Shown piece by piece: positions 31,259 through 48,423 of a stretch of DNA of 51,534 bases. Below the pieces are notes generated by a model. It had not been told where the DNA came from and did no database searches. It saw only the letters and a program-made list of their open reading frames with translations. Each line of letters begins with the position of its first letter. Position 1 is the stretch's first letter. The stretch is from assembly GCA_029261155.1 (NCBI GenBank), contig JAJDBW010000059.1, positions 1 to 51,534 of the forward strand, read 5' to 3'. A program made the position numbers and the translations under genes. The stretch comes from Nitrospirota bacterium (GTDB lineage: Bacteria; Nitrospirota; Nitrospiria; SBBL01; JAADHI01).

Positions 31259-31268
31259 GGTCGTTCCC

Positions 31269-32297
31269 TTAAATTGCACAGCAGGCTCGTTTCCTAAAAA
31301 TCATCCATAAAAAATTGTCGCTTGAGTTGGGTCCGGCTGAGAAGGGTGGATTTTTAACTTGCCCCCAAATCATGCTTGAGCGGCCGATGGGGTGACAGGT
31401 AATGTCCCGAATCGGTTTTGCGATGTGAATACGATAGTTGTGCTTTACCCAAATCGGTGTCGGGATACAGCTGCACAAGTAAATTCCGGTGTCGCAAACA
31501 AGGAGCTGGCGAGAAAGTTTATAGATCGTCCGGGCCGCGATGGCGGCATTGGCTTGGACATAGGCGTCGTCATTGACGTGACCGGTGAGCGGATACGCGG
31601 ATCCCCAGGACCCCATGCACCAATAGAGCGCGCTTAAGGGCAGACCGGCGTTGGCGGCGACACTGTCAGCGATACAGGCCATTTGCGCGATTGGATTTGC
31701 AAATAGGAGGGCTTCTGGATTAATGACGAAGGCCAACATATCGTTGTTCCATAATGGATCGACTTCCGTGAGATAGGCCAGGTCAAAACCGCTGCTCTCG
31801 ACGCAGATGAAATCGGTGAGCAATTCCATAATGGCCCAGGCCGGAAAGATGAAGTAGTGGGCTTGCGCGAAGGTTGAAGTATCGACGTTGGCGCCGCTTG
31901 ACATCTCGGAATGGGTGCCGCTTAGGAAGCCGGCACTTGGATTCGTCATGGGAAACCCGAGACTTGGAAAGTAGTAGGGGTCTTTTACAGTCTCGACAAA
32001 CCTGGCAGGCTCCCAAAAGGCAATAGGAATACCCGCCCGGAAAAATATGGGTGGTGGTGCAGGACAGATGCAAATGGGGCCGACAGCGGGATCGGGGGCA
32101 TCCATGACCACGCCCGGCACGACGGGGATTCCTCCGATTTTAATCGGAAAAATACAATGCCAGCAGATATCTGTCACTGGATTTAGAGGCGTCCCGTATC
32201 CGAGCGCATAGGCGTCGTCGTGATTTACGAGTAACAGTAAAAAAATGGCGGCGGCGAGGAACAATGAACGATTCCCATTAATCGAAGGCAATTTCAT
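31269..32297 (-). CDS. traU: Conjugal transfer protein TraU
   Basis: The second ATG, at 32297, has GGAGG close upstream. A signal peptide precedes the TraU core with many cysteines: NPVTDICWHCIFPIKIGG, ICICPAPPPIFFRAGIPIAF, WEPARFVETVKDPYYFPSLG, LYWCMGSWGSAYPLTG. TraU is a periplasmic protein needed for DNA transfer in the mating pair and needs disulfide bonds. At 342 residues it matches the family. It overlaps traW by 20 bases and trbC's frame lightly. Confidence 0.94.
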   Translation of the reverse strand: MKLPSINGNRSLFLAAAIFLLLLVNHDDAYALGYGTPLNPVTDICWHCIFPIKIGGIPVVPGVVMDAPDPAVGPICICPAPPPIFFRAGIPIAFWEPARFVETVKDPYYFPSLGFPMTNPSAGFLSGTHSEMSSGANVDTSTFAQAHYFIFPAWAIMELLTDFICVESSGFDLAYLTEVDPLWNNDMLAFVINPEALLFANPIAQMACIADSVAANAGLPLSALYWCMGSWGSAYPLTGHVNDDAYVQANAAIAARTIYKLSRQLLVCDTGIYLCSCIPTPIWVKHNYRIHIAKPIRDITCHPIGRSSMIWGQVKNPPFSAGPNSSDNFLWMIFRKRACCAI

Positions 32298-32907
32298 GAA
32301 CCTCCATGACAGCATTGTTTTGCATGGCTATTGAGGGTAGAGCTTTTATTTGCAGACGCGATAGTATTTTGTTATCGGCGTAGAACACGGCGCGGTCGAG
32401 TTGCTCGTAAAGTTGAAAATATTCCCCTGAGGTGAGCAAGAGCATGGTCTTTGGGTCGTTTGCGTATGTGGAAGTTTTAAACCATTCGACTTGTTCCGGA
32501 TCGCCCGCATCAATAAAAACGAGGGTGTTCGGAAGTACCATATGACTGAGGGGGTTAAAGGAATAACCACGCGGATAGAGAATCCCGCCTTCGCCATTTG
32601 GGATGTCCATCGTTAAGGTGTAGGTCATGTTGACGATAAACCGGTCGTTCTTCTCTGCCCGCGGCAAACGCTTCAGTCCTGATGGCCGATACGCTTTTAC
32701 GGTTTTCTCCGTTGTCTCTTTGTTGAGGACGGTTTCCCAATCCACCTCTTTTGCACGTTGCTCAATTTCCGTTAAGGCATCGGGTTCGGCGATGGGATAG
32801 GAGGCGCCGAAAGTCCCGAGGTTTTTTGCGGATGCGTAGGAATCGTATCCGAGAATTAACAAAATCAAGAGAATTCCCAAAAGAACTTTTGATATTAAAC
32901 TGGACAT
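32278..32907 (-). CDS. traW: Conjugal transfer protein TraW
   Basis: After the signal peptide, NLGTFGASYPIAEPDALTEI is the TraW N-terminal signature. The later ILYPRGYSFNPLSHMVLPNT, LVFIDAGDPEQVEWF and VFYADNKILSRLQIKALPSI complete the domain. At 209 residues it matches F TraW, a periplasmic pilus-assembly factor working with TrbC. It lies 13 bases after traN. Confidence 0.95.
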   Translation of the reverse strand: MSSLISKVLLGILLILLILGYDSYASAKNLGTFGASYPIAEPDALTEIEQRAKEVDWETVLNKETTEKTVKAYRPSGLKRLPRAEKNDRFIVNMTYTLTMDIPNGEGGILYPRGYSFNPLSHMVLPNTLVFIDAGDPEQVEWFKTSTYANDPKTMLLLTSGEYFQLYEQLDRAVFYADNKILSRLQIKALPSIAMQNNAVMEVHEIAFD

Positions 32908-32920
32908 AACAAAACGGCTC

Positions 32921-35377
32921 CTATGGCCTAAGATTGTTATAAAAATCGTTTACCTCACTACTCATATCTGATTCGATGCCGGTTTGTGTCTTTGTTGTGA
33001 TGTCCCCAAAGAACTCTGAGAGATCGATTTGGCTAAAATCGATCATTTGTAGGTCCTCCGGCAAAAAGCCGCTACAGTTTGGTGCAGGGGGTGTTCTCCA
33101 ATCCCCCGTTGGACCGTATGTGAGTAGCTGTGGCCGGCCTTGCTCATGGATGATTCGCCCAAGCTTTCCATTAAACGAACAATAGACTTCTTCATTTTGT
33201 ACACACCCAATTAACGGAATGCTTCGGATGCATTGAGAACCGATATGATGCGTTTGTCCGTTGTCCCTTGCATCGTTTAGTGTTCGTTCCGATGCCTTGC
33301 AGTGTTTTAAAAAATCGATCGGTGAAGAAGATCCGTTGCTGCAACAATTAAAAAACCCCGTATCGGACCCAGACGGTCGGCAGGTCGCGCGTTCTCCGCC
33401 GAATATACGGATTTGACCTGAACAAATACCGGTCGCTGGATTTGTTGTACCCTCACAGAGGGTGTCTTCTCCGGCCGATTCCAAAACCTCCATCATCGTG
33501 GCCGCTTCTAAAAAGTCGTTTTGGCATTGGCAATCTGCTTCAAGGGTCTCCCCAGGCTCGATGGGACAAGAGGGTGTGCCTGATACAATGGGGCACGATT
33601 TATAAAAATAATCCGTTCCTGCCGTCGAGGTTCTGAATTGAGAGGTTGTTCCGCTTATTGAGGCGTTGGTATTGGTTGTTGGACGGCTTGTTTTGCAGGC
33701 CAGTTCGCAGACGGGCGGGGGCGTCGTGGCAGGTATTGCAAAAGTGCTGTTTTCCGATGTCCAGGTGGACCCGTCTTTCCTTAGGTCTTCATAATAGAAA
33801 GAGCTTGGGTTGTTACTGACGTTTCCCGTGACGACTTCCGCGCGGGTTTTGGCGTCGCTAAAATCGAATGTCAAATTCGTTTCACAACGATAGGTTCGAT
33901 CCGTGTCCCACCAATTGCGGCATCGGACATAGTTTCCTAGCGCCCCGGTAAAAGTCTTACACGATGAGAGAGGAGTGATCCGGGTGGGCTGGTAATTCAC
34001 GTAGGTCTGAACACTATCCATTGTTTCTTCTCGAAGTTGGCATTTCGGATCTGCATCGAGGCCTATACAACCATTGTTGATGGTTTCTGAAATGGTGTCC
34101 GTGACGTAGTTGAAGAGATAGTTGTAATTAAAGGGTGGGTAGGCTTCGCCAGAGCCGTGACAGGTCATGACATTGACCGAAGTGTTTTTTGTGGTGACGC
34201 AAGCGGTCCCGGAGGCGGGACAAGTACCTGTCGTGGGATTCATGCAATAATTAAATGACGTGGGAGGTGCTGGAAGATTGACTATCTCGAGGGTGTGCCA
34301 ATCGTCAACACCCCCGCCGGTACCGGTGCCGCCACAGTTTCTGTGGCCGTCACCTCCAGGACCCGTATCCAAATATTGGAGGTGATATCGGGTGGGTGTT
34401 TCCTCGTGCGCGCGGATATAGACGAAGTGATCGGAACAAAGCGTGCCGGCCCCTCCGTTTCCAATGGAACCGGTTTGACTGGTAACGGTAATGATCCGAT
34501 CGAGTCCACAAGTTTGATAACTTGATGAGGCCGTGCTGGCGGCCATGGTTCCGGTCATTAAGCTGTAATAGCTGTTGGGGTCACTCGATTGGATGGAAAT
34601 TTCCGTCGATGTGTCAGGTGCAATTGCGGTGGGATTCCCGAAATATTGCTCGGGGGAACTGGACCCGCTTGTAGAGGACACAGTGGAGCAGTTCGCTGAA
34701 TCCTTCCCATAATATTGGATGGTATTTCCCGAGATGGTTGTATCGGTGATGGTATATTTTGGATCGCGGGCTTGAATCGCGGCGCTGATTCCGCCGCCTA
34801 AGTCAGTGAGGATTTTGGGTAACAAAGTCGTCGACGGGGCGCCACAGCTGTTGTTAATGCAGTAGCAGCCTCCTAGATTTGTCATGAGGGTTGGGCTTAG
34901 GGAGAGATTGATACTGGAGTCGACCTGCCAGGTGTAGTAACTGCACCCTGTCCATGTCCCTGCCGAGCAGGAAATCACGCCGTTACCACATACGCCGGAT
35001 ATTGGCGTCGGAGACGAGAAGGTAAAGTCGGGCGCACCATCCATGTCCCGGTCGATTTGAATCGTCATCGGAGATAAATCACCGAATCCGGCCCAGGCCG
35101 ATGCCGTAACGCTCACAAAGCTTTGTGTCGAAGGACAAGTGAGTTGAGCGTCGAAAGTGGTGGCGTCATCGAGTGTAGACATTGTTGTTCCATTATTGGT
35201 GAGCGGGTTTGCGCTTCGCTCCTTAATTCCCTTGGTTGTTCCAAGTCGATCGCGAACCCAAGCACCAAGATCCGTACCGGCTTGAGTCGGATCGGTTGTT
35301 GCCCCAAGTGTCCGAGTGGGATTGAATGGATTCAGCAATAAGGTCATAAAAAAAACGATCATTGTTTTAAGCAGCAT
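32921..35377 (-). CDS. traN: Conjugal transfer protein TraN (outer-membrane mating-pair stabilisation)
   Basis: The 818-residue, cysteine-rich secreted protein has the C-terminal TraN motifs DCQCQNDFLEAATMMEVLES, CCSNGSSSPIDFLKHCKASE, and SIPLIGCVQNEEVYCSFNGK-LGRIIHEQGR. The N-terminal 450 residues contain a calcium-type DRDMDGAPDF repeat and a variable threonine/serine-rich region, probably the recipient-contact tip. TraN binds recipient outer-membrane receptors to stabilise mating pairs. The start overlaps traC by 11 bases. Confidence 0.92.
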   Translation of the reverse strand: MLLKTMIVFFMTLLLNPFNPTRTLGATTDPTQAGTDLGAWVRDRLGTTKGIKERSANPLTNNGTTMSTLDDATTFDAQLTCPSTQSFVSVTASAWAGFGDLSPMTIQIDRDMDGAPDFTFSSPTPISGVCGNGVISCSAGTWTGCSYYTWQVDSSINLSLSPTLMTNLGGCYCINNSCGAPSTTLLPKILTDLGGGISAAIQARDPKYTITDTTISGNTIQYYGKDSANCSTVSSTSGSSSPEQYFGNPTAIAPDTSTEISIQSSDPNSYYSLMTGTMAASTASSSYQTCGLDRIITVTSQTGSIGNGGAGTLCSDHFVYIRAHEETPTRYHLQYLDTGPGGDGHRNCGGTGTGGGVDDWHTLEIVNLPAPPTSFNYCMNPTTGTCPASGTACVTTKNTSVNVMTCHGSGEAYPPFNYNYLFNYVTDTISETINNGCIGLDADPKCQLREETMDSVQTYVNYQPTRITPLSSCKTFTGALGNYVRCRNWWDTDRTYRCETNLTFDFSDAKTRAEVVTGNVSNNPSSFYYEDLRKDGSTWTSENSTFAIPATTPPPVCELACKTSRPTTNTNASISGTTSQFRTSTAGTDYFYKSCPIVSGTPSCPIEPGETLEADCQCQNDFLEAATMMEVLESAGEDTLCEGTTNPATGICSGQIRIFGGERATCRPSGSDTGFFNCCSNGSSSPIDFLKHCKASERTLNDARDNGQTHHIGSQCIRSIPLIGCVQNEEVYCSFNGKLGRIIHEQGRPQLLTYGPTGDWRTPPAPNCSGFLPEDLQMIDFSQIDLSEFFGDITTKTQTGIESDMSSEVNDFYNNLRP

Positions 35378-37865
35378 ATTTTAGAACCATGGTTTCAATG
35401 GCTTCTGTATAGGTCTTCCCTTGTGAAACCATCGCAGCAATTTCTGCGACTTCATGTTTCTCGGAGGAGTTGATGTAATACAAAAACTTATCGACAATGA
35501 GTCGAACGACACCCTTGGATAAAGGGGTATCGAAAAAAATCTCCGAATAGAATGGTTTTTTACTGGCTGTGGTTTTAAGCAGCTTAAAAGTAAATGGATC
35601 GAGGTCTATCAAATTAAGCTTATACGCCTGGTCGAAATCGCTGGATTGCAGGTAAAGTTTAAAAGCGGAATTGGCTCGGATTACGTCCCCGACTTTTCCA
35701 AAATTATACAGATCAAGAGGAGATTGGGTGACAACGCCAAAAGAGCCGCCATGCTTTCTGGCTCTTCTATATCCGCCTTCTATGACTTGTTCCAAGGCGC
35801 CCAGGTCTCCGCCTTCTTCTCCTAGGAATTGTGAGGCCTCCTCGAATATATTGAGGCTCTGACGGTAGGTTTTCGATAGATAAAGATCCTGCGTGATGGC
35901 GTTAACGATCTGAAGGGTGACAACCTTAAAGAGTTCCTTTTGTGGTTTTAGATTCTGGAGTTCCAGGACGACAAAGTCGTCATTGGAAATATTGAGCGTC
36001 GATTTTCCATTGACCCACTTACCGTAGACACCTTTCGATGTGAATTCCGTCAGGTTAAATGCGAGACGTTTTGCGAGATCAATCAGATGGGGTTGATTGA
36101 AATCCGAATTTTTATCTTGCTCAGGAAAGGTTTTAAGATAAAGGAAGACAAGATCGATATGATTTTGTTTCTGGGGGTGCTCATAATACGCCCAAGTGGT
36201 CGCATACTTTATGAGCGTCATAATACTCTCGGCGTCGTCTTTCGGAACGGATCCGGTAGCCGAATAAATCATCTGCAGAATAATCGCCGCGATAACGGAT
36301 ACATCGTCATCAAAATCGACGACATTGCTAAATGGATTGAGACAAACTTTCGAAAATTTATCGAAGTCAAGATAAACACCGTTGACCATTTTCGTGAGTT
36401 TGTTGTAGGAACCGCCCAAATCGGCGATTCGAATTTTCGCCCCTGCCTTGTAGTACTTCAAACAAAGATCGTTGATTAAAAAAGATTTTCCTTCTCCACT
36501 TCTGGCTCCGAGATAAAAGTTATGGTTCGGCGCTCTTTTATCGAAGAGGTCGATCCCGCAGGTCTGCCCTTTTCGTCCGACGTAGGTTAAAACGGGTTTT
36601 CCGATACCGGAGAAATCCCCTTGAACAGGCATAAATGAAGCGATCGCATTGGTCGGGGCGATAAAATCTCGTTCTAATAGATCAATATTTTTTTTGTTGA
36701 GGTAGAACCCGAAAGGAAGGGATCCGATGAATAGGCTTGTGAGGATGTTTCTGTCTTTCTGCATCACGAATTGGGCGCCTTCCCAGATACGCTTTATCCT
36801 CTCGATGCCTTCGGCAGCCACCTGTTCTTCTTTGTGCCATACCCAGAGCGCAGGAATAATCCTCAAAAACTTTGTCCCTTTTTCGAGTTCGTCGGTGGCC
36901 CACTGATACTCTTCTTGTTTTCGAAACAGAGAGCGAGCCATGCTGCCTACGCCTTTTTGCAATAAGATCAGGTTGCATTTTTTATGTAGTTCCGGTTTGA
37001 GGTCATCAAAAATGATATTTAGGGTAAATAGGAAGGGTGTTTTGATTTGGTCATTGTCAAAATCTCCTCCCAAATAGCTACCGAAAAGCCCATGAGTTAT
37101 GAGCGAGTCGATTGTGCTCGGGAAAACCTTCGGCGTAATGCATTTAAAATAATAGTCTCCAATTTTAAGAGAAGTTCCGAGATCTTCTATCGGAGTTTCG
37201 GCCGAGATGATCTGCTTTCGTATAGGCATTCCTTCTGAGTAGTGTCCCCCTGGCAAGCTCGGTTTTTGGTTAAAAAGCCGCCACATCCAATCGATGAGCA
37301 TTCGAGGCGAAAGATGTTCGGGACAAAGTGAGGCTCCGGATAGGTTTTCCGCCATCATATTTTTTATGTCGATTAACTGGTTGGAGGATAAGGGATGGGT
37401 GTGAGTTGGTAACTTTAGGCATTCGAAATGTCTGAAATTTCGAATAGGCATCCCAGAAAGCTTATCTAAGCCCGAGGTGCCTTGTTTTAGAAACTCGCAA
37501 AAATGCTCGGTTGTTTTTTCGATTAAGGGGCTGGATCTTTTTCCTGCGGCTCGAAAAGCGTCTAGAAAAGGATCGATATTGTTATCCGCATAAAGGATCG
37601 ATTGTAAAACAGTACCCGCTGGGAAAGGGTAGTTAAGCATGTTTTCGAGCGTGCTGTGTGTCTTGGCGCCGGCGAAAGCAAGGGGCGCGCATTCCCACAG
37701 AAACCCCTCAGACTCATCGGTGTTTTTATAAAGATTCGTTTCCGAGTCATGAAAACTCCAGGGCAAAAAGTCTGAAAATTTCGTCCGGCTTAGAGATTGT
37801 TCAATATCCGCGTGTGTGAGCCCGCCTTTTTTTCCAAAGATATTAAATAGGTTTGGAATATTCAT
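35367..37865 (-). CDS. traC: TraC (VirB4-like) secretion ATPase
   Basis: The 832-residue protein has Walker A GARSGEGKSFL (about residues 450-460) and Walker B LNIFEEASQFLGEEGG (about 670), with the conserved ADLGGSYNKL segment between. The N-terminal half (LPWSFHDSETNLYKN; GSYLGGDFDND) matches TraC_F. It is the cytoplasmic motor for pilus assembly and retraction. It starts nine bases after traV. Confidence 0.95.
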   Translation of the reverse strand: MNIPNLFNIFGKKGGLTHADIEQSLSRTKFSDFLPWSFHDSETNLYKNTDESEGFLWECAPLAFAGAKTHSTLENMLNYPFPAGTVLQSILYADNNIDPFLDAFRAAGKRSSPLIEKTTEHFCEFLKQGTSGLDKLSGMPIRNFRHFECLKLPTHTHPLSSNQLIDIKNMMAENLSGASLCPEHLSPRMLIDWMWRLFNQKPSLPGGHYSEGMPIRKQIISAETPIEDLGTSLKIGDYYFKCITPKVFPSTIDSLITHGLFGSYLGGDFDNDQIKTPFLFTLNIIFDDLKPELHKKCNLILLQKGVGSMARSLFRKQEEYQWATDELEKGTKFLRIIPALWVWHKEEQVAAEGIERIKRIWEGAQFVMQKDRNILTSLFIGSLPFGFYLNKKNIDLLERDFIAPTNAIASFMPVQGDFSGIGKPVLTYVGRKGQTCGIDLFDKRAPNHNFYLGARSGEGKSFLINDLCLKYYKAGAKIRIADLGGSYNKLTKMVNGVYLDFDKFSKVCLNPFSNVVDFDDDVSVIAAIILQMIYSATGSVPKDDAESIMTLIKYATTWAYYEHPQKQNHIDLVFLYLKTFPEQDKNSDFNQPHLIDLAKRLAFNLTEFTSKGVYGKWVNGKSTLNISNDDFVVLELQNLKPQKELFKVVTLQIVNAITQDLYLSKTYRQSLNIFEEASQFLGEEGGDLGALEQVIEGGYRRARKHGGSFGVVTQSPLDLYNFGKVGDVIRANSAFKLYLQSSDFDQAYKLNLIDLDPFTFKLLKTTASKKPFYSEIFFDTPLSKGVVRLIVDKFLYYINSSEKHEVAEIAAMVSQGKTYTEAIETMVLKYAA

Positions 37866-37873
37866 GTTCGTCC

Positions 37874-38377
37874 TTATTGAAGAGGATTCGTTTGTCGATG
37901 TGGAATCGCTTCGCCCGGTTTCCGCCCGAGCTTGTTATCCAAGACCCACTGTGCTTGATCGACGACCAGATAGATGTGCCGGGCCATGTAGAGTTCCCCG
38001 TGGCCCCCTTCATATGGGAGGACGAGTATTCGAATAACGCGCGGCGGTTTAATTAAAGGAGTTTTGGGGGCTTTTAGAATGCCGGTTATTTCTTCAATTA
38101 ATGCGTTGTAGTAAGTAATCTCTGACGGGGATGTAAGAGGATTGGTCGAAAGATCCAATGGGGCGATATCCTCTTTACTTTCAGAGATTTTATCTAGAGT
38201 AAGGTCTTTTATGGGTTGCCCATCTTCTTGACCGATTGATTCTTTGTAGGCCTCAGATGCTGAAACGCATTTCCCATTGAAAGTTTTTGGACAGGTAAAG
38301 TCGGATTCGTAGGGCGTAAAGGCAGCACATCCGCTTATCAATAAGATGAGAAAGCCCGAAAAAATCAGTTGTCGCAT
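37874..38377 (-). CDS. traV: TraV outer-membrane lipoprotein
   Basis: The lipobox LLISGC is followed by AAFTPYESDFTCPKTFNGKC, where the paired cysteines and spacing are those of TraV; the C-terminus has RVIRILVLPYEGGHGELYMA and RHIYLVVDQAQWVL. It forms the outer ring of the secretin-like core complex with TraK and TraB. The start overlaps the end of traB by 13 bases. Confidence 0.93.
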   Translation of the reverse strand: MRQLIFSGFLILLISGCAAFTPYESDFTCPKTFNGKCVSASEAYKESIGQEDGQPIKDLTLDKISESKEDIAPLDLSTNPLTSPSEITYYNALIEEITGILKAPKTPLIKPPRVIRILVLPYEGGHGELYMARHIYLVVDQAQWVLDNKLGRKPGEAIPHRQTNPLQ

Positions 38378-39537
38378 TCTTGATCTCCTATACAGGTGTC
38401 TTTTATTTCAAGCGTGACGCCTTCGGTAATAATAAGGGTCACTGTCTTCGTTGCGCCCACTTCGATGATGGGTGTCGCCTGTCGGGCCAGTTCAAGGAAA
38501 AGGCGCTGGATTTCCTTACTCCCACTGGAGAGGCCTCCGCCAATAGCGGCCTTTTCTAAGTTTGTAGATTCAATAATGGCTGTTGACCCCAGTGGGCTTG
38601 TTGTTTGTGTGGTTGCGGCGGCGCTTAAGGCGTCTCCGGCGCCCCCAAAAATACCTGCCATCGTGGCATAGGAGATGCTGGCCCCCATTCTAGAGACAAC
38701 ATTTCCTCTGAGGCCGTTTTTACCGTCCTCATCGGCCACAAAGCCTTTCACGCTTTGGTCAATAACGGATCGGCCATCTTTTGCCAGGCAGGACAGTGTG
38801 ACCAGGCGCAAGAGGACTCTTTCTTTTGAAAGTTTTCCATAGCCATGGGCAATGGCAAAACATCCTTTAAGATTGGCTTTGATTCGGTTAGGCAGCACGG
38901 CCAAATCTTTTATGCGGAGCAAGACAGGTTCGGGCTGAGCCTGGGCTGACTCAACCGTTTCAGCATCAAGGCCAGTTAACAAGGTCGCTTCCATAAAAGA
39001 AGGGGGAAGATAAACGCTTGTCGTCCCTTTTTTTTTATCTGAAGGCTCCTTATTGATAAGCCCATCTGAAAAGGGGTTTGAAACGATAGTGATCTCTCCG
39101 ATCGTCTCTCTTAATGGAATTATCGTTGCTGCTGAGGGTTTTGAGTTTTGCGTCAGAGGTGGCGGCGGAGGAGGAATATTTAAGGCCTTTCCAGAAGGAG
39201 AGACTTGATTGATATGGCTGGCTTGCCTTTCGGTATCGGAACTACGTTTTTCCTTCTCTCTTTGGAGCTCGTTTATTGTCTTCTTCATGTCCGCCATTTC
39301 CAATTCAAAATCCCGTATCGCTTTTTCGCTTTCCGCGACCATTGATTTTTCGATGATACGGTCATCGAGGACGACTGGTTTTTTTGTATCTTGCGTATTG
39401 GCCACTGGATGTGAAGACCGGTTAACCTTGTAAGCAACGACCGATCCGGCGATCACCGCTATGAAAAAAATAAGCAGCACAAACCGACGTTTTCGCCCGG
39501 GGTTTAGATTGCGCCATGATTCCTTGAAACTAGCCAT
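38365..39537 (-). CDS. traB: TraB core-complex protein (VirB10/TrbI-like)
   Basis: A cytoplasmic N-terminus and membrane segment (RRFVLLIFFIAVIAGSVVAY) lead to a coiled coil (AESEKAIRDFELEMADMKKT), a proline-rich stretch (NIPPPPPPLTQ) and the VirB10-type beta-barrel domain (GCFAIAHGYGKLSKERVLLR; VKGFVADEDGKNGLRGNVVS; VTLIITEGVTLEI). It spans the envelope and links TraK/TraV to the inner membrane. Overlaps traK by eight bases. Confidence 0.95.
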   Translation of the reverse strand: MASFKESWRNLNPGRKRRFVLLIFFIAVIAGSVVAYKVNRSSHPVANTQDTKKPVVLDDRIIEKSMVAESEKAIRDFELEMADMKKTINELQREKEKRSSDTERQASHINQVSPSGKALNIPPPPPPLTQNSKPSAATIIPLRETIGEITIVSNPFSDGLINKEPSDKKKGTTSVYLPPSFMEATLLTGLDAETVESAQAQPEPVLLRIKDLAVLPNRIKANLKGCFAIAHGYGKLSKERVLLRLVTLSCLAKDGRSVIDQSVKGFVADEDGKNGLRGNVVSRMGASISYATMAGIFGGAGDALSAAATTQTTSPLGSTAIIESTNLEKAAIGGGLSSGSKEIQRLFLELARQATPIIEVGATKTVTLIITEGVTLEIKDTCIGDQECDN

Positions 39538-40306
39538 TGGATTCGCTTCCCCTTCTTTCTATGATGATCATTCTGGCCGCTTCCCCAGACTTCAGCGACT
39601 TGACGTCGATCGAGATAGCGACAGGTCGCAGGGTGATTGCATCGAGGAGAAAATCTTCTTCCTTTAAGCCAACAGCGGCAGAGACCTTTTTGGGTTGGAT
39701 GACAAATTCCTTAATCCGATACCCTTCGCCTTCGACTTCTATACTTCGAATAAGGGTAACGATAATGTCTTGGAATAGATCTATTTTTTCCTGATGCGAT
39801 TGAACCGTAAAGCTGTTAGGCAGTTGATCGGTATAGGAGAGCTGGAAAAGCCGAGATATCTTTTCTTCGTGGGGGAGGCCCTGAAAAAGGGATTGATTCT
39901 CCTTGATGGCTTTGGCGGCGCCGTTAGTCAGGCGCAGGGTTTGCGATGGGATCCTCTTTGGCATGGCAACAAGATGATAAGTATTTCCGTTGCAAACAAT
40001 AAAGATTTCCGTTGGATTAAAAGCGTATTGGAGCTGCGGGCCCTCTTTGATAATTTGAAATTTGATATAAGCGTCATTTTTAGTGAAATGAATAATCAAA
40101 CCTTTTTCTTGGGAATAAACGACATCGGTAATGGGAGTCCCACAGATCACACGGTTTGCGTCTGTGTTGCTGAGCGCGACCTGTGTCGTTGTTTCAGGCA
40201 GTATGGGTGGGTTGATTTGAGAATCGATATCGATCGTCTCTTGGGAAAAGACAGGTGTTGAAAAAATAAGGACGGTCAACAGAAAGGGGAAATATTTTAG
40301 ATTCAT
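39530..40306 (-). CDS. traK: TraK core-complex protein (secretin-like)
   Basis: A signal peptide (LLTVLIFSTPVFSQ) is followed by two beta-rich TraK domains (NRVICGTPITDVVYSQEKGL; FIVCNGNTYHLVAMPKRIPS; GYRIKEFVIQPKKVSAAVG). It sits between TraB and TraV in the outer-membrane core, equivalent to VirB9. 258 residues, close to F TraK. Start overlaps traE stop by four bases. Confidence 0.93.
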   Translation of the reverse strand: MNLKYFPFLLTVLIFSTPVFSQETIDIDSQINPPILPETTTQVALSNTDANRVICGTPITDVVYSQEKGLIIHFTKNDAYIKFQIIKEGPQLQYAFNPTEIFIVCNGNTYHLVAMPKRIPSQTLRLTNGAAKAIKENQSLFQGLPHEEKISRLFQLSYTDQLPNSFTVQSHQEKIDLFQDIIVTLIRSIEVEGEGYRIKEFVIQPKKVSAAVGLKEEDFLLDAITLRPVAISIDVKSLKSGEAARMIIIERRGSESNG

Positions 40307-40872
40307 CGTTTTTTCCCTCCGGAGAGTGCTTCGTATTCGTTATAGTCGAGCAACGTAAAACGGCCATCGACTATTTCGTAGTTGATGACATAGGTTTTAT
40401 TTTCAGGCGCCAAGCTTGAGGATTCTGAGAACATTTTGTTAATACCGTGGATCTCAATTTCTCGGTTAGAGGCAAGAACCTTTTGGATCACAAAAGCGTT
40501 AGTGACTTTGGCAATTTCGATTCGCTCAGCCAAGTCGTAGAGTTGGGCCTTGGCGCGCTGATAAGTGCTTGGGGAGAACATGGAGAGTAAGGCGTTAAAC
40601 TGGCGCCTAGCCGTAGCGGGGGTATAGTTTCCGCTCAGGGACATGATGTAACGCGCATAAGCGTCAAGAGTGATATCGGAGGCCTCATTTCCGCTGATTT
40701 CCAAGGGCGAATTGAACGCAGGCGGAATCAGGATCGTGCGTTGACTGGAGATGGCTCTTTCAAGCTGGAACGCATTCCAGACGGAAATGACCCCAATGAC
40801 CAAAACGACAAATTTTAGAAGCCTGTTTTGTGCCCAGGTATTAGAACTCGGACTAACATAGTTACCACTCAT
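40303..40872 (-). CDS. traE: TraE pilus assembly protein
   Basis: The 189-residue protein has one N-terminal membrane segment (LLKFVVLVIGVISVWNAFQL) and a VirB8-like periplasmic part: LDAYARYIMSLSGNYTPATA, RRQFNALLSMFSPSTYQ and YVINYEIVDGRFTLLDYNEY. It matches F TraE in size and topology and belongs to the inner-membrane assembly platform. Ten bases separate it from traL. Confidence 0.94.
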   Translation of the reverse strand: MSGNYVSPSSNTWAQNRLLKFVVLVIGVISVWNAFQLERAISSQRTILIPPAFNSPLEISGNEASDITLDAYARYIMSLSGNYTPATARRQFNALLSMFSPSTYQRAKAQLYDLAERIEIAKVTNAFVIQKVLASNREIEIHGINKMFSESSSLAPENKTYVINYEIVDGRFTLLDYNEYEALSGGKKR

Positions 40873-40881
40873 AACAATGTC

Positions 40882-41151
40882 CTATTCGTGAAATTCTTTC
40901 TCGAAATAAATGGGATATCCTTTTAATGTTGCGAGTCCAATCATGAAGAACAGGTGTTTGACGAATCCTCTGGGATGCCGTTTTTTAAATCGAAGGTAGA
41001 CATAGGGTCCTATAAAAATGAGGGGTATAAAATATCGGCCGAAGATAAGAGAGAGCGTATAAAATATAAAAGCTAAAATAAATTCATCCATTTCCAGCCA
41101 CAAAATTTGAAATGGATTTGACAGATATTGTGGAAATCGATATTGCTCCAT
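40882..41151 (-). CDS. traL: TraL pilus assembly protein
   Basis: The 89-residue protein opens YRFPQYLSNPFQILWLEMDE, the TraL signature, then has two hydrophobic segments (ILAFIFYTLSLIFGRYFIPL) and KKRHPRGFVKHLFFMIGLAT-LKGYP near the end. Equivalent to VirB3, it helps assemble the pilus at the inner membrane. Standard position after the pilin gene. Confidence 0.94.
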   Translation of the reverse strand: MEQYRFPQYLSNPFQILWLEMDEFILAFIFYTLSLIFGRYFIPLIFIGPYVYLRFKKRHPRGFVKHLFFMIGLATLKGYPIYFEKEFHE

Positions 41152-41167
41152 AGGGCACCCTTTTTGA

Positions 41168-41199
41168 CCGCACCCTGAGCCTTTCTACTCAGGGTGCGG
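41168..41199. promoter_or_regulatory. Hairpin between pilin gene and traL
   Basis: CCGCACCCTGAG (41168-41179) and CTCAGGGTGCGG (41188-41199) form a perfect 12-bp stem with an eight-base loop. It lies 14 bases past the pilin stop in the reading direction. On the minus strand it is followed by GTCAAAAAGGG, not a T run, so it is more likely an mRNA-stabilising or processing hairpin than a full terminator, allowing high pilin expression relative to the downstream genes (inference). Confidence 0.6.
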
Positions 41200-41212
41200 C
41201 ATTTGAGTTGTA

Positions 41213-41542
41213 TTAAATGATCATGCCTAAGCTTGCGACAACGGTGTCGGCCGAAAGGAGGACTGCACCTCCCAACACGGCCGAGATCGCCATGATGATT
41301 TCGGTCCGCATCGCAGCCCAGGCTCCGAAGCCAATAGCAAGAACGCCTAATACAAATCCAATGGGGCCGTTTAAAATTTGGTTGACCGCAATGTCATAGG
41401 CGTCGTAGGCGAAGCTGCCGGCAACTGGGACGGCAATCGCCCAGGCGACTGTTGCGAACACCATTAAAAACATTGGTGCGAACAATGCGGCAGCGTTCTT
41501 ATTCTTGAACCATTGGTGGCTGTTTAAGAACATTGTTTCCAT
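41213..41542 (-). CDS. traA: TraA-like prepilin
   Basis: The 109-residue protein has a positively charged leader (NSHQWFKNKNAAALFAPMFL), likely cleaved after the VAWA region or thereabouts, and two hydrophobic helices (GPIGFVLGVLAIGFGAWAAM; EIIMAISAVLGGAVLLSADT) separated by a short charged turn, as in F pilin. It is the pilus subunit. AAGGAGG precedes ATG 41542. Sequence identity to F TraA is low; the call rests on size, topology and its place just before traL. Confidence 0.82.
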   Translation of the reverse strand: METMFLNSHQWFKNKNAAALFAPMFLMVFATVAWAIAVPVAGSFAYDAYDIAVNQILNGPIGFVLGVLAIGFGAWAAMRTEIIMAISAVLGGAVLLSADTVVASLGMII

Positions 41543-41590
41543 TTCGTTACTTCCTCCTTCCTTGTCGTTCTTGGGTAATTGATGCGTTTC

Positions 41591-42319
41591 TCAGGAATGT
41601 CCATCTAGAATCTCTTGGATCTTTCTGAAATCCGCTCCTGGTACAAATTGGCCGTTAATCCAAAGTGCTGGCGTACCGCGCACGTTGAGTTTCCGGCCAA
41701 TTTCTTGATGAGCAAGGAGGAGCGTAACGGCTTTATCCTCCTTGCATTCCGCCAGCATGGTCCTATCTAAGCCGCCGGAGAGTGCTTCTTCATATGCCTT
41801 GTTTCTGTCGTTGGCACATAAAATATACAATGCTTTTTTTTCAGCTTCCGGATGGATCTGAGTAATGGGAAAAAGAAAAATATATCGTGTTAAGTCGTTT
41901 CTTTTATTAAAAAAGGCGTGGGTTTTTCGGCAAAAAGGGCAGTCGGGATCGACAACTTCAATAACCGTGTTCGGGCCGTTACCGATTCGAATCGCTTTAT
42001 CCAAGGGGAGGTCTGCGATTTTGGCCGCTTGGAGTGCGTTGGTTCTTACGGCGGTTAGATTCTTCTTATTCTGATCCCACATCTCTCCAAAGAAGGTAAT
42101 GCCGGATTCCGGAGCGTAGTAGACGACTTGGTCATTGACTGTCAGCTCAAAGACGCCGGTCACCGGCGTGGCTTGGATATGGTCGATCGTGATGTCTGGA
42201 AATCTGGCTCGAATAACGTCGGCCTCATTCGGTTGCTCTTCATGCGTATGGCCCAGTTGCGGCGAGAGGATGAGAAGGACTGTGAAGATTAAGTATTGAA
42301 AAGTCTTGACTGCCTTCAT
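41591..42319 (-). CDS. DsbC-like thiol:disulfide interchange protein
   Basis: A signal peptide (YLIFTVLLILSPQLGHTHEE) precedes a DsbC-type dimerisation region (ITIDHIQATPVTGVFELTVN) and a thioredoxin fold with CPFC (IEVVDPDCPFCRKTHAFFNK) and cis-proline GTPALWINGQFVPGA. It isomerises disulfides in periplasmic transfer proteins such as TraN, TraU and TraH. Coupled to the OmpA-like gene upstream by a four-base overlap. Confidence 0.93.
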   Translation of the reverse strand: MKAVKTFQYLIFTVLLILSPQLGHTHEEQPNEADVIRARFPDITIDHIQATPVTGVFELTVNDQVVYYAPESGITFFGEMWDQNKKNLTAVRTNALQAAKIADLPLDKAIRIGNGPNTVIEVVDPDCPFCRKTHAFFNKRNDLTRYIFLFPITQIHPEAEKKALYILCANDRNKAYEEALSGGLDRTMLAECKEDKAVTLLLAHQEIGRKLNVRGTPALWINGQFVPGADFRKIQEILDGHS

Positions 42320-42930
42320 GATTGATCTCCTTTTGGATTAATTGGGTTTACGAAAATTTCAACCCTTCGATTGAGACGGGTTTCCTTCGATATAGGGCAA
42401 CACGCACCCTTCCCCTCGGCCGTGTCGATAGTGATGTCTTGATCTTTAAGTACCCTTCTGACGGCAAGAGCACGGTCTCGGGAGAGACGATCGTTATAGA
42501 CCGGGTCCCCGATGGTGCAGGTATGTCCCACCAGAACGATCTGCTTTTCTCCTGGGAGCGATTTTATTTTCTTAATGATCTTCCTTAATTTTTCCTGACT
42601 ATATTCTGTGACCACTGTGGAGTCGAAACCAAAATGCACGGTGAATACCCGAGGTTCGAAAAAGAATTGTGTTTTGGCTATTGTTGGTACCGGTTTTTTC
42701 GCCGTCATTTTGAGAGCCAAGGCCGGTACTTGCACGAAGCGTTTTAACGAGGGGGGTTCCGGGCAATCGCAAATAATGAAAGTATCGCCTTCCTCAATAA
42801 GGACTAATCTACTGTCTTCGTATCCGTAAGGTTCGACGATGACTTCGGCGGCCCAGCCTTGAGAGGGCGTCCAGAAGAACATACCAACTAAAAATATAAT
42901 ATTAATGACGGGGTGCTTGAGTTTCTTCAA
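42316..42930 (-). CDS. OmpA-like peptidoglycan-binding protein, first gene of transfer operon
   Basis: The 204-residue protein has a signal peptide and an OmpA C-terminal domain: VHFGFDSTVVTEYSQEKLRK, KQIVLVGHTCTIGDPVYNDR and LSRDRALAVRRVL, with the usual end (ETRLNRRVEIFV). It probably ties the transfer complex to peptidoglycan. An OmpA-type gene at the head of an F-type operon has no F plasmid counterpart. The divergent region with the long inverted repeat lies directly upstream. Confidence 0.88.
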   Translation of the reverse strand: MKKLKHPVINIIFLVGMFFWTPSQGWAAEVIVEPYGYEDSRLVLIEEGDTFIICDCPEPPSLKRFVQVPALALKMTAKKPVPTIAKTQFFFEPRVFTVHFGFDSTVVTEYSQEKLRKIIKKIKSLPGEKQIVLVGHTCTIGDPVYNDRLSRDRALAVRRVLKDQDITIDTAEGKGACCPISKETRLNRRVEIFVNPINPKGDQS

Positions 42931-42989
42931 TCTTTGTCCTCGTAAAATCGTGATAGCTTTTTGCGCTAAATGAACGATACCAGGGGTAT

Positions 42990-43064
42990 GGAGACAAAAA
43001 ACACCCCAAAAATCTTCAAAAATAGGGGTGAAAAATGAAGATTTTTGGGGTGTTTTTTGTCTCC
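42990..43064. other. Perfect 29-bp inverted repeat in divergent region, candidate oriT or operator
   Basis: Positions 42990-43018 are the exact reverse complement of 43036-43064, with a 17-base spacer. Each arm has the order GGAGAC, an A6 tract, CACCCC, an A5 tract and TCTTCA. The motif AGGGGT(A/G) also occurs just outside the left arm (42982-) and within the spacer (43024-), with AAGGGTG after the right arm. It lies between the divergent transfer operon (from 42930) and the coupling-protein operon (from 43089). Long perfect arms in such a position suggest an oriT, a regulator-binding palindrome or a transcript insulator; sequence alone cannot decide. Confidence 0.6.
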
Positions 43065-43088
43065 AAGGGTGTAATACGATGAAACCAA

Positions 43089-44099
43089 ATGCATGGAACA
43101 GGGCTAATGCGGCGAAATCGGATATATATCGGAAAATGGCTTGGCTTTAAGACCTACCTCCCTTGCCGCCTACGTTTTCCAAGTCTGTTTATCCATTCTG
43201 ATCAAGCGTCTCTTCAAGATCTTTATTTACTGCATTTCTTAAAGATGGAGTCCGCCCTCCCCTGTTCCTCAATTGTGGTTACGCAAAAAAGAGGATTGAT
43301 CGAAAAAATAAAAGCCCATGCCCTCGGTCGAAAAAACGTGCTCTATATGGATCCCGACGACTTGCGGACCTTGTCCTTAAACCCGATCGAGCAGCCAGGT
43401 GATTTTATGTTCGAGGGGCTGGTCAGGTCCTTATTGCACAAGGATTGCGGAAGGAAGGCTGCGGAATTGCTCGATAGCCTGCTCAAGTTGGTGGCGACCG
43501 AAGGGGGTGGGCGCATGGCGCTGCCCGCGCTGCAGGCCCTTTCAGGAGATGGTGCCGGTGGCTTGAAGCATTGGTTGCAGCAGGGAAAGACCCCCCTGCG
43601 GATCGCATTATTAAACGATGTGGATAAGATGGACGAAGGGGTCCTAAATTGTTTGCTCAGTGAGATTGCGCAGGGCATGGGTTTTTTGGCGGATGATCCG
43701 GTGAAGCGGCTTTTTCTTGAACCGACGATTTATGTCCCCATTTTATTTCACGAAGAAACGGTATTTCTTGTTCATGTTTCGGAAAAATACGAACAGGCCC
43801 AGCGAATAATTCAATTGATCTGCCATTCCATCTTCCTTCAAATTGCCGGCTATCCAAAGAAGGATTCTTTAAAACCATTATTTTTTCACTTTGATTCTCA
43901 TCCGGACCTTCACCTGCCGGATGAGACCTTGACGATATTGAAAGCTGCGCGCGTGGGTCTGACATCGCATTGTAGAGACCCTGATTGCGACCACGGGGGT
44001 ATCGCGGCCGGTATCCGTTTAGTTGACGGGAAGAGGGGGACGATCACGGACGGGAGGAGACAAAGAAGATTCACGCCCGTATTCATTGAAAATACTTAA
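43089..44099 (+). CDS. Degenerate TraD-like protein without nucleotide-binding motifs
   Basis: The 336-residue protein has no Walker A sequence. Its C-terminal part (PLFFHFDSHPDLHLPDETLT, then ILKAARVGLTSHCRD) lines up with the TraD gene just downstream (SLFFYLDEVYALHLPDWADF, then ANTARSARVGLVTGLQ), but the Walker B LDE is FDS. Earlier VLYMDPDDLRTLSLNPIE parallels the TraD segment VILFDPFQSNCIGFEPLR. It therefore looks like an inactive paralogue of the coupling protein, perhaps a regulatory or adaptor subunit. The start is uncertain (ATG 43089 or 43107; weak ribosome-binding sites). It ends ten bases before the TraD start. Confidence 0.65.
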   Translation: MHGTGLMRRNRIYIGKWLGFKTYLPCRLRFPSLFIHSDQASLQDLYLLHFLKMESALPCSSIVVTQKRGLIEKIKAHALGRKNVLYMDPDDLRTLSLNPIEQPGDFMFEGLVRSLLHKDCGRKAAELLDSLLKLVATEGGGRMALPALQALSGDGAGGLKHWLQQGKTPLRIALLNDVDKMDEGVLNCLLSEIAQGMGFLADDPVKRLFLEPTIYVPILFHEETVFLVHVSEKYEQAQRIIQLICHSIFLQIAGYPKKDSLKPLFFHFDSHPDLHLPDETLTILKAARVGLTSHCRDPDCDHGGIAAGIRLVDGKRGTITDGRRQRRFTPVFIENT

Positions 44100-44109
44100 G
44101 AGGATGGCG

Positions 44110-45897
44110 ATGGAAATAGTTGAAGGAATAAGAAACAGCGGTTTTTTCTCGGGTCAGAAGGGGATGTTTTGGATCGGCGTCGTTATTTTCATTATTCTAT
44201 TAATTGGAATCGCGAGCCGGTCTAAAAGACAGAGTACGGGCTGCTATGCGGGCATGTTTGAAAGTTTTTATCATCTTGGCGATTGGTCCAAATGGCCCTT
44301 ATCGTTTTATGCCTTTGTTCTGATTGTGCTGTCGGGTGCTGCTTTGGCCTTGGGAGCGGGATACTATTCGTGGGGACCTTCTTTCATACGTGATCAGGAT
44401 CGGATGATTATAACGCTTGGCCTTTGTTTCATCGGATCTCTCGTCGCCTATTGGCTTGTCTTTGAGATTATTTTTGTTCGGCGGAGTAAAAATCGGTTTG
44501 TACTAGGGGAAAGATTCTTTGGGCTGCCGTTATTTCTATCCCTTCAGGAAAAAGATCGCTATGAGCATATCCTTATGGAGGGCCGGGCAGGGACCGGAAA
44601 GACAACAGGCTTTATGTTTCCACAGTTGCTTGATGATGCAGATGGCGATTGTTCGGCCGTGTTCTTGGATGTGAAATCTCCTGAAGGCTATGAAACCGTC
44701 GCGGGCGCCTGGTCGAATCGTGGGAAGAAGGTAATTCTATTTGATCCCTTTCAATCGAATTGTATTGGGTTCGAGCCTCTACGCAATGCCGATCAGGACG
44801 CTTTGGAGGGCATTGAGGAAACTGTTTTTGGTAAACGGAGTACGGACGAAAGTCAACAAACCGTATGGTTTGAAGAACAAGAACGGCGCTTGTTCCGTTT
44901 TTGTTGTGAACTGGTGATGGGATACAAAAATCGCTCTCAATGCAGTTTGCCCATGGTGTATCAGCTTTTACTCAGAGGAAGCTCCGAATTGCAAGGCGCT
45001 GTCACATATAGCGGTAATACGGGGCTGCAGACAAGATTCGAACCCTTATTTGAAAATAAAAATCGATTACAGGACCTCATTGGCGGCGTCTTGAATCAAT
45101 TGGATTTATTTTCTTCAAAAGAGATAGCCGCCGCTTTTTCCCGTCCGGATTTGGATGTGGGGTTATTGTTTCGTGAGCCTTGTTTGTTAATCATCGCGAG
45201 TCCGCATAGTAACCCAAAGGCGCGTATGGCCGCATCGATTCTATTAAGAGCGATTATGATGGAGGTTTATAAAAACCCGGTTCGCGCGATGGGTGATGGA
45301 CCCTCTTTGTTTTTTTACCTAGATGAAGTCTATGCACTGCATCTACCGGATTGGGCGGATTTTGCGAATACGGCTCGATCTGCGCGGGTGGGTCTTGTGA
45401 CGGGTCTTCAGACAGAAGAGCAGTTGCGTCGTTATCAGCCTCATGAACGGGCGACGATCAAAATCAATACGAAGACAAAAATCTATTTACAAGGATGCGA
45501 TTTCAGAACGTGTGAGGAACTGAGTAAGCGGTTGGGTAAACGGTCAGTCCGGGATAAACGGTATTCACGATCCATGCAGAGGGGATCGATGGTGTCGACA
45601 GGTTTTGTCGAGGTGCCCTTGGAGACACCGGATTCGATCGAGAACCTACCTCTTGATCAAGCCCTCATTTTTGTCGGGGGACTACGGGGCTTTAAAGTAA
45701 GACGTATTTCATCTTTTAAAACCCGACAGTACAAGAAACGGCTCAACCTGCCCGCACGGGCGCACAGACCGACGAAAGAACCCCTGGTGCCTCCGAGCTA
45801 TAAGGACATGGATTACGGGTTACCACCGGAAACGCAGTATCCGGGTAAAGAAACTGATAAACCTGCTGATCCAAGTTCAGGGATGATTGGGTATTAG
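44110..45897 (+). CDS. traD: TraD-type conjugative coupling protein (T4CP)
   Basis: ATG 44110 has AAGAGG six bases upstream; the frame opens further at 44023 inside the upstream gene. Three membrane segments (GMFWIGVVIFIILLIGIASR; LSFYAFVLIVLSGAALALGA; IITLGLCFIGSLVAYWLVFE) precede a RecA-like motor with Walker A EGRAGTGKTTGF (about 157-168), AVFLDVKSPEGYETVAG, Walker B LFFYLDEVYAL (about 400) and ARVGLVTGLQTEEQL. It pumps the relaxase-bound DNA strand into the secretion channel. The usual TraD C-terminal relaxosome-binding tail is short. Confidence 0.92.
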   Translation: MEIVEGIRNSGFFSGQKGMFWIGVVIFIILLIGIASRSKRQSTGCYAGMFESFYHLGDWSKWPLSFYAFVLIVLSGAALALGAGYYSWGPSFIRDQDRMIITLGLCFIGSLVAYWLVFEIIFVRRSKNRFVLGERFFGLPLFLSLQEKDRYEHILMEGRAGTGKTTGFMFPQLLDDADGDCSAVFLDVKSPEGYETVAGAWSNRGKKVILFDPFQSNCIGFEPLRNADQDALEGIEETVFGKRSTDESQQTVWFEEQERRLFRFCCELVMGYKNRSQCSLPMVYQLLLRGSSELQGAVTYSGNTGLQTRFEPLFENKNRLQDLIGGVLNQLDLFSSKEIAAAFSRPDLDVGLLFREPCLLIIASPHSNPKARMAASILLRAIMMEVYKNPVRAMGDGPSLFFYLDEVYALHLPDWADFANTARSARVGLVTGLQTEEQLRRYQPHERATIKINTKTKIYLQGCDFRTCEELSKRLGKRSVRDKRYSRSMQRGSMVSTGFVEVPLETPDSIENLPLDQALIFVGGLRGFKVRRISSFKTRQYKKRLNLPARAHRPTKEPLVPPSYKDMDYGLPPETQYPGKETDKPADPSSGMIGY

Positions 45898-45906: not shown

Positions 45907-47592
45907 ATGTCTTCAAATAATGCGTTTGCAGAGGTCAAGGAGCGCGCGGATCTGGTTGACATTATTTCGCGTTTATCAAACAAGAAAATCACGGGGAGCG
46001 GGAAACGTTTTCAGCTTTCAGAATGTCCTTTTTGTGAGGGGCATGGTTGTTTTTCGATCTCGACCGAAAAACAACTCTTTAATTGTTTTCAGTGTCCCGG
46101 GGAATCCACGGGCGGAGACGTATTTACTTTCGTAAAGCGGCTGAAGGGCTGTGACATGCGGGTTGCGCTGGAGGTGGTTGCTGCAGAGATTGGCTATATC
46201 CTTCCAATACAAAAGCCCGTTGGTAAACAGAATATTCGCGATGCCATCATGGCATGGGCGAAGGGAAATTTGTCTTTGCATGAAGCAGTGCCATATCTGG
46301 ATTACTTAGTGCAGACTAGGGGGCTGTCGAAAGAGCTTATCTTAAGCCTTGATGTGGGCTATCTCTTGGATCGAGGGTCATTGATTTCTCATTTCAAAAA
46401 GGAGGGCTACACCTATAACGAAATTAAGGATTCCGGTATTTTGACAAAGGATTTCGGATCGTTTTACCGGATCGTATTTGGATGGCGAAACGCCTTTGGC
46501 AGTGTTGAGGGATTTGTCGGGGGTGCAACAAGAGACCAGATGGAGCGGCTTTCACAAGAGGAAGACGAAACATACCCGAAATACAAGAAAAACGCGGATT
46601 TTCATGCTTCTGATCCGTTTAATTTGAATCATGCGAAGCGGTTTGTGCCAGTCGGTGGAACGTTGGTCATTGTTGAAGGATTTTTGGATTGCCTCCGAAT
46701 GATGAACGAAGGGATTCATAATGTCGTGGCTTTGGCGGGGAGTGTCTTTAAAGAATCGTATATTCAAGCGATCGAACAGACGGGTTTCTCGCGACTGATT
46801 CTATTTTTGGACGGCGATGAGGGAGGGAGGAAAGGAACCAAGCGGGCAATTGATATGATGTTGAAACGGAAAACCCGACTAAGAATTTATGTCGCCGAGC
46901 TTTGCCTAGATGATCCCGAGGATGAGACTCGATTCATAAAAGACCCGGATGAGTTGATTTCGAAGAAGGGTGTTGGTGCCCTTAAGGATTTGATTCAGAC
47001 GCCTGTGTACGGAGGGACTTGGTTGGTCGGAGCGATGTGGACGGAGATGGATTTGCGAAGTCCGCTGACGCGCGATAGTGCAATAAAATATATTGGCGAG
47101 TTATGGGGCTTTTTTAAAGATGAAGTTGAGAAGAAGGAAATCCTAAAAGTAATGGCCAGCGCCTGTGATTCGACACAGGATGACTTGCGTAAGTCTATTG
47201 AGCGGTGGTTACCTGAAGAAAATACCGTTGCCGCTCACGGGGAATCCAGCGCGGTATCGACCGTCCAGGGAAGTGGATTGGAAGAGTGGAAAAAGAAGTA
47301 TAAAGAGGTACTTGAAGAAAAAAAAGTTTTAAAAAAACAACTCCGAGGCGCGTTAACCGGATACGCAAAAGCAGTAAAACAAGGAGGTGCCTTATCTAAG
47401 GCTGGCCGTTTATGGCATGTCAAACGTCTGATGGAAGCACATATGCGGGTGCTTAAAAAAGTGCGCCGCGATCCTAACGGGGTTGTGTGGATGATTGAGA
47501 CGATCGATGGCATTTTTTCCTCGGCCAGACTAAGGGATTTGGAACGCATTAATCAGGAGGTGACTGAATTTTTAGATGAGGGCGAGTCTTAA
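45907..47592 (+). CDS. DnaG-like primase (CHC2 zinc finger and Toprim)
   Basis: The 561-residue protein has a zinc finger with C40, C43, C60 and C63 (SECPFCEGHG and NCFQCPGESTGG), a primase core (IVFGWRNAFGSVEGFVGGAT) and Toprim motifs (GTLVIVEGFLDCLRM; SRLILFLDGDEGGRKGT). A coiled-coil C-terminal part follows. Plasmid primases prime the transferred strand in the recipient. AGGAGG is directly upstream of ATG 45907, nine bases past the traD stop. Confidence 0.93.
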   Translation: MSSNNAFAEVKERADLVDIISRLSNKKITGSGKRFQLSECPFCEGHGCFSISTEKQLFNCFQCPGESTGGDVFTFVKRLKGCDMRVALEVVAAEIGYILPIQKPVGKQNIRDAIMAWAKGNLSLHEAVPYLDYLVQTRGLSKELILSLDVGYLLDRGSLISHFKKEGYTYNEIKDSGILTKDFGSFYRIVFGWRNAFGSVEGFVGGATRDQMERLSQEEDETYPKYKKNADFHASDPFNLNHAKRFVPVGGTLVIVEGFLDCLRMMNEGIHNVVALAGSVFKESYIQAIEQTGFSRLILFLDGDEGGRKGTKRAIDMMLKRKTRLRIYVAELCLDDPEDETRFIKDPDELISKKGVGALKDLIQTPVYGGTWLVGAMWTEMDLRSPLTRDSAIKYIGELWGFFKDEVEKKEILKVMASACDSTQDDLRKSIERWLPEENTVAAHGESSAVSTVQGSGLEEWKKKYKEVLEEKKVLKKQLRGALTGYAKAVKQGGALSKAGRLWHVKRLMEAHMRVLKKVRRDPNGVVWMIETIDGIFSSARLRDLERINQEVTEFLDEGES

Positions 47593-47607: not shown

Positions 47608-48423
47608 ATGCTAAAAGGGTTGCATTTAACAGATCGTGATTTCGGTCTTTTTGAATATCTTGCCTCTGGTCCTGCTTTTGAAGATGACCTTCATGCCAGG
47701 TTTTTTAATGCGGAAGGACGCCTTGTTCATAGGTCGATCATATTAAGACGGATGCGCAAGTTAAGGAAAGAAGGCTTAATTGGTCGATTGAATCCACGCC
47801 GCATTTCGGGCAAGGGCATCGGTCATAAAGCCATCTACGTCCTTGATAAAGCTGGGATTGAATTGTTGAGTCGGGAGGGAGTGATGCCGTCAGAGCGAAT
47901 TAGGCAGGTTCGCTTGGATGTTCGATCAATTTTTCATGAGATACTCCTGACGCGTTTGATTCGAAAAATATACGAAGGAGAAGCGAGTCGATACCAGGTC
48001 GAGCGACTATATGACCATTTAGATTTAGCAAAGATGGCACACAGAAAACGATTGAAGCGGATTCCTGATTTGCGGTTTACTGTAAAATTGCGGAGCGGAG
48101 AATATTTTAGTTTTATCGTCGAAGTGGATGCCGGCACAACTCATATGCCTGAGATGGTTCAGAAGTTGGCGGTATTTCCTAAAATCAATAAGGCGCTCTC
48201 TCCAATTGGGGCGACGGGACGCTTTGGCATTCTCATCGTGTGCCACACGGAAAGTTGGATGGCACGGATTCAAAGAGCGGTCCGGGAGAGTCGCGTGACC
48301 GCTCCATTATTGCCTAACTTTCTTTTTAATGCGATCAGCAATGTGGATAATAGTTTGGGATTGCACAACCCTTGGTTCCGGGCGGATGGGAAAAAGGTCG
48401 AATCGATTTTTAAAAGAGGATAG
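47608..48423 (+). CDS. Replication-relaxation/MobC-like protein
   Basis: The 271-residue protein has an N-terminal winged helix (LTDRDFGLFEYLASG; IILRRMRKLRKEGLIGRLNP; AIYVLDKAGIELL) and a C-terminal nuclease-like fold with RIPDLRFTVKLRSGEYFSFI then VEVDAGT, the PD-(n)-E-x-D pattern seen in replication-relaxation family proteins. Such proteins often sit in mobilisation regions and may nick DNA or bind oriT. No classical relaxase is present in the window, so it is a candidate for that role (inference). Strong AAGGAGG before ATG. Last gene of the plus operon. Confidence 0.75.
   Translation: MLKGLHLTDRDFGLFEYLASGPAFEDDLHARFFNAEGRLVHRSIILRRMRKLRKEGLIGRLNPRRISGKGIGHKAIYVLDKAGIELLSREGVMPSERIRQVRLDVRSIFHEILLTRLIRKIYEGEASRYQVERLYDHLDLAKMAHRKRLKRIPDLRFTVKLRSGEYFSFIVEVDAGTTHMPEMVQKLAVFPKINKALSPIGATGRFGILIVCHTESWMARIQRAVRESRVTAPLLPNFLFNAISNVDNSLGLHNPWFRADGKKVESIFKRG

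Follow-up and report, generated by a model that had tools for sequence, protein, structure and literature searches.

Gene content around the junction

The window (the whole stretch of DNA that was analysed, 51.5 kb) belongs to a Nitrospirota genome with relatives among the Ca. Manganitrophaceae and carries a conjugative module. A long palindrome (42989-43065) occupies the junction of two divergent operons, and the gene calls on both sides agree with the initial annotation, which had placed it between the operons for the channel and for the DNA-processing proteins. The leftward operon, encoding an F-type T4SS, begins with the gene of an OmpA-like protein (42316..42930, minus strand, PF00691), and the remainder of it (23230..42319, minus strand) is syntenic in a second complete module of the same genome (contig C40) and in the related genomes G003 and G001. 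Leftward from the palindrome, the order of products is OmpA-like, DsbC-like, a small membrane protein, TraL, TraE, TraK, TraB, TraV, TraC, TraW, TraU, TrbC, TraF, TraH, TraG and a transglycosylase (SLT). A perfect 12-bp hairpin (41168-41199, CCGCACCCTGAG/CTCAGGGTGCGG) lies between the pilin-like gene and traL and is identical in C40 (12195-12226); the complete Manganitrophus plasmids (GAC) have a different, 14-bp hairpin downstream of the dsbC-like gene. The hairpin at 41168-41199 is perhaps a site of mRNA processing or partial termination.

The rightward operon, on the plus strand, begins with a degenerate TraD/T4CP relative that is devoid of the Walker A motif (43089..44099; 97.7% and E 2e-12 when A6 was compared by hhalign to the TraD alignment), for which no match was found in the modules of the plasmid GAC4 and of G011 except cross-hits to TraD. 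It continues with a TraD-like coupling protein (44023..45897, PF02534 and PF12696), the true start of which is probably downstream of 44023, a DnaG-like primase (45907..47592, PF01807 and PF13155), which is found in the same operon across complete modules, and a candidate MOBC-type relaxase (47608..48423, PF13814).

Geometry and strength of the palindrome

The two arms (42989..43018 and 43036..43065) are 30 nt each and 100% complementary, and are separated by a 17-nt central loop (43019..43035, AAAATAGGGGTGAAAAA), giving 77 bases in all. The exactness of the arms and the length of the spacer are as first described, but the arms had been given as 29 bp and gain an extra base pair at the outer end. 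Perfect 30-bp arms in 51.5 kb are far beyond chance: the runner-up in the window has perfect arms of 12 bp, and a mismatch-tolerant scan found nothing else scoring at least 14, versus 30 for this palindrome. Folded alone as RNA, either strand reaches approximately -48 kcal/mol (z = -10.8 and -13.3 versus dinucleotide shuffles).

The left flank (CCAGGGGTAT) and the loop (ATAGGGGTG) each hold the AGGGGT motif noted earlier, and the right flank carries AAGGGTG. The copy in the left flank is common to C40 and to a third, fragmentary copy of the site on contig C24, but is missing from more distant relatives, and the loop AGGGGT and the right-flank AAGGGTG are absent from both C40 and C24. An Rfam scan of the palindrome gave no match at gathering score, only sub-threshold hairpins such as miRNA precursors, and a reading as a structured-RNA gene is disfavoured. 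A blastn search of plasmids with the palindrome junction as query found no match, nor did a scan of viral contigs or a first peptide-pattern scan of genome contigs, in which the patterns were poor.

Flanking and loop motifs

Just outside the palindrome lie two conserved motifs that face outward, so that both -35 regions would fall inside the arms. On the minus strand, TGGTATCGT (42974..42982) is a candidate for the extended -10 element of the channel operon, though it could instead be a site for protein binding; it takes the form TGNTATCGT (minus strand) in the relatives, being conserved in C40, C24, G003 (two loci) and G001. On the plus strand, TGTAATACGAT (43070..43080) is a candidate -10 element of the processing operon that is identical in C40 and C24, versus TGTATGATT in the matching position of G003-C1 and G001. 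A consensus promoter scan called neither motif, and we infer their promoter role.

A further candidate motif, CAAAAATAGGGG, spans 43017-43028, its first bases lying in the left arm. The central pattern CAWWWWAG(A)GGG is seen, on either strand, in the window, G003-C1, G001, G003-C24 and GAC4 (chance per junction 0.7-5%), and CATAAGTGGG is present in two enterococcal loci; the loops of C40 and C24 of this genome do not contain the pattern, which is a lead only because it was picked after looking. A comparison of the window loop (43019-43035) with those of loci L021, L022, L023 and L029 places the G-run of the loop on one strand in the window, G003-C24 and GAC4, and on the opposite strand in G003-C1 and G001. 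The loop thus seems to flip inside the palindrome between elements.

Conservation of the palindrome in related modules

The relatives are Nitrospirota MAGs, several of them Ca. Manganitrophaceae, and include complete Manganitrophus plasmids; besides the enterococci they represent only about five independent lineages, with some loci being assembly fragments. This genome carries three copies of the site, every one at the transfer junction (the window, the second complete module on C40, and the fragment on C24). As the initial annotation had proposed, repeats were sought in related elements, and a long palindrome was found at the same junction in G003 (two loci), G001 and three near-identical complete Manganitrophus (GAC) plasmids, being the strongest palindrome of each such locus (tied in L060). 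The exceptions are the G011 module, which has only a short GCGACAT hairpin at the junction, and L028, which has no comparable palindrome.

The palindrome matters because its letters vary among the relatives but the hairpin shape is retained. Between the window and C40, five stem positions differ, four of which are changed on both sides, and the stems of the window, C40 and C24 have 74 of 78 cells paired, versus a shuffle mean of 68.0 (reached in 97 of 20,000 shuffles); for the G003/G001 pair by itself, shuffling gave no significant covariation (2,519 of 20,000). The arms of the window group and of the G003 group are both palindromic but unrelated in their letters, and the proteins of the two groups are 45-95% identical.

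On C24 (L008), the transfer region is only about 400 bp long, matching 42741-43136 of the window with the palindrome included, and is adjoined by a tRNA-Val, a tyrosine integrase and an HTH_17 protein (1961-4096); the contig ends early. By our own estimate, a random 400-bp remnant of the approximately 29-kb region would have a chance of about 1% of including the complete palindrome. C24 may be a mobilizable element that borrows or mimics the oriT, or a decayed remnant. The first 141 bp of the window (1-141) are identical to the start of C24, and a TonB receptor region (10463-11651) is 81% identical to C24 142-1330, which probably reflects branching of the assembly at a repeat.

A candidate MOBC-type relaxase

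The window had been thought to lack an obvious relaxase, but the product of 47608-48423 matches PF13814 (40.6 bits, cut-off 25.3), and the match was repeated on the DNA. PF13814 represents the MobC relaxase superfamily (PMC5357655), and MOBC relaxases are kin of PD-(D/E)XK endonucleases (PMC12857230). The processing operon ends in a PF13814 protein in every module examined. D154, E172 and D174 of the window protein are invariant in eight sequences, and their D-x17-E-x-[D/E] spacing equals that of D152, E170 and E172 in the family of pAM373 and other enterococcal relaxases, with which the window-type set gave a weak match by hhalign (E 0.0016, probability 16%) that aligns the catalytic positions. 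A MOBC relaxase would be expected to have a restriction-endonuclease-like fold with an N-terminal winged helix; an AF2 model of moderate confidence (pLDDT 64, pTM 0.62) brought up several folds of the restriction-endonuclease-like kind in Foldseek, among them SdaI, EcoO109I, EndoMS and Nt.BspD6I, all with E above 0.001 and none significant, and a PDB sequence search found no match. We assign the protein to the MOBC-type relaxases with good, though not full, confidence.

A TrwC-type (MOBF) relaxase is encoded elsewhere in the genome, on contig C45 (L075, G000:C45:2805-3602), presumably on a separate element. It occurs also in G003 but is missing from G001, G011 and GAC4 despite the presence of the module in all three, and is therefore unlikely to be the usual partner of the module.

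Comparison with enterococcal MOBC plasmids and other transfer systems

In pAM373, which is typed MOBC, a palindrome with 25-bp perfect arms and a 27-nt loop lies between the coupling-protein gene and the PF13814 gene; the oriTs of pAD1 and pAM373 are reported to contain inverted repeats (PMC5587640). In six further enterococcal loci (L062-L067), which are homologous and hence not independent, the top palindrome has arms of 18-36 bp and is located just upstream of the relaxase gene, again with the coupling-protein gene on its other side. The window site resembles pAD1 oriT2 and pAM373 in its long palindrome, the G-run of its loop, and its place beside genes for a coupling protein and a PF13814 relaxase. 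The enterococcal MOBC oriT differs in its Gram-positive host, its co-directional genes and the TraX direct repeats beside its palindrome; the arm letters are unrelated to those of the window and the similarity of the relaxases is marginal.

The direct repeats of pAD1 are the binding site of TraX, and the published spacing from this site to nic is 70-120 bp. L062 has an array of direct repeats with an 11-bp period (2002-2056) and its palindrome at 2104-2177; assuming that L062 is pAD1-like and that the published spacing applies, its nic would lie near 2122-2126, inside the palindrome. No direct repeats were found at 42920-43095 of the window. Since such repeats are described for pAD1 only, the site is proposed to work like a MOBC oriT, not as one of the pAD1 type.

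Like the window site, the oriT of RP4 (IncP) has an inverted repeat, there adjoining nic, and separates two transfer operons that diverge; however, the RP4 repeat is much shorter and its relaxase is of the HUH type (MOBP), whereas a profile search of this genome found no match to PF03432 (MOBP). C40 and C24 have an IncP nic consensus (ATCCTG) on the left side of their palindromes, but it was rejected as a candidate, since the window has an altered version and the other relatives lack it. The F plasmid has the same channel genes (TraL-E-K-B-V-C-W-U-F-H-G) but uses the MOBF relaxase TraI, whereas the adjacent candidate of the window is of the MOBC type and its operon diverges from the channel operon. 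The IncA/C relaxase is of the MOBH type, and PF07514 was likewise not found in this genome by profile search. The IncA/C oriT has inverted repeats that overlap the promoters of a transfer gene (PMC5587640); the inverted repeat of the window is similarly near promoter-like elements, but those of IncA/C are short.

The palindrome as a putative origin of transfer

Related modules and MOBC plasmids have a palindrome of matching position and anatomy, the operon next to it encodes a candidate MOBC-type relaxase, and C24 carries an oriT-only copy. These findings argue that the palindrome is the oriT core of an F-type module with the PF13814 relaxase (47608-48423), with a probability of about 0.68. 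Of the two roles first suggested for the site, oriT or the site of a transfer regulator, the former is thus the better supported. The palindrome would be extruded as a hairpin, or opened by the relaxosome, and the restriction-endonuclease-like relaxase would nick in or near it; TraD would pass the nicked strand to the T4SS, and the complementary strand would possibly be primed by the DnaG-like primase of the module. As the candidate -10 elements lie just outside the arms, a relaxosome occupying the site between divergent promoters could also regulate the channel and processing operons, and the palindrome may have a dual role as a promoter/operator region. Nicking at the site, its strand and the position of nic, as well as priming and regulation, are steps that we infer. 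It is conceivable, though rather doubtful, that hairpin shape is the main feature by which MOBC oriTs are recognised, with arms that drift freely under compensation and a short central CAWWWWAG(A)GGG that specifies cleavage; as the loop is able to flip within the palindrome, the nicked strand, and hence the direction of transfer, could then invert between elements.

The main rival, unlikely in our judgement, is that the palindrome is not an oriT but an operator or cruciform switch through which the divergent transfer operons are regulated together. The palindrome does lie exactly between outward-facing, conserved promoter-like motifs with both -35 regions inside its arms, but the unrelated arm letters of the window and G003 groups, despite the similarity of their proteins, are unexpected for the operator of a conserved regulator, and no regulator gene was recognised beside the palindrome. 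Moreover, the genes on either side of the enterococcal MOBC palindromes are co-directional, and C24 retains the palindrome without the operons. The initial annotation had named transcription termination as the alternative to oriT, and the window stem (AAAAAACACCCC...GGGGTGTTTTTT) does look like an intrinsic (bidirectional) terminator with its A-tract, GC stem and T-tract, as do those of C40 and C24. This reading is disfavoured to the point of being improbable, since the T-tract is limited to these three copies and the other relatives retain the palindrome with no T-tract after the GC stem; the palindrome is also upstream of both divergent operons, and terminator scans made no call here or in L021.

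Equally improbable is the reading that the DnaG-like primase uses the palindrome for priming after transfer, as an ssi or single-strand promoter, with nic elsewhere. Priming sites such as the RSF1010 ssi and Frpo of the F plasmid are hairpins, and complete modules encode the primase in the same operon, but in the enterococcal MOBC loci, over the stretches retrieved, no primase is annotated adjacent to the palindrome. Long inverted repeats are also typical of the ends of MITEs and insertion sequences, yet a mobile repeat inserted between the operons is scarcely credible, given that copies are not dispersed but number only three in the genome, each at the transfer junction, and that the same position is occupied across genera by palindromes with unrelated letters.

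Putative mobility of the elements, and neighbouring genes

Nitrospirota conjugative modules look relaxase-less to standard typing, and the three Manganitrophus plasmids are classed as non-mobilizable by MOB-suite, according to PLSDB. With a putative MOBC relaxase and a putative hairpin oriT, these plasmids and integrative elements become candidates for self-transmissibility. A long palindrome beside a PF13814 gene would be a structural signature for locating oriTs that escape sequence searches. Beside the transfer module of the window, a TerB-domain protein, a BrxC/BrxD-family ATPase and a DEAD helicase are encoded in tandem (3846-9656), a possible defence cluster.
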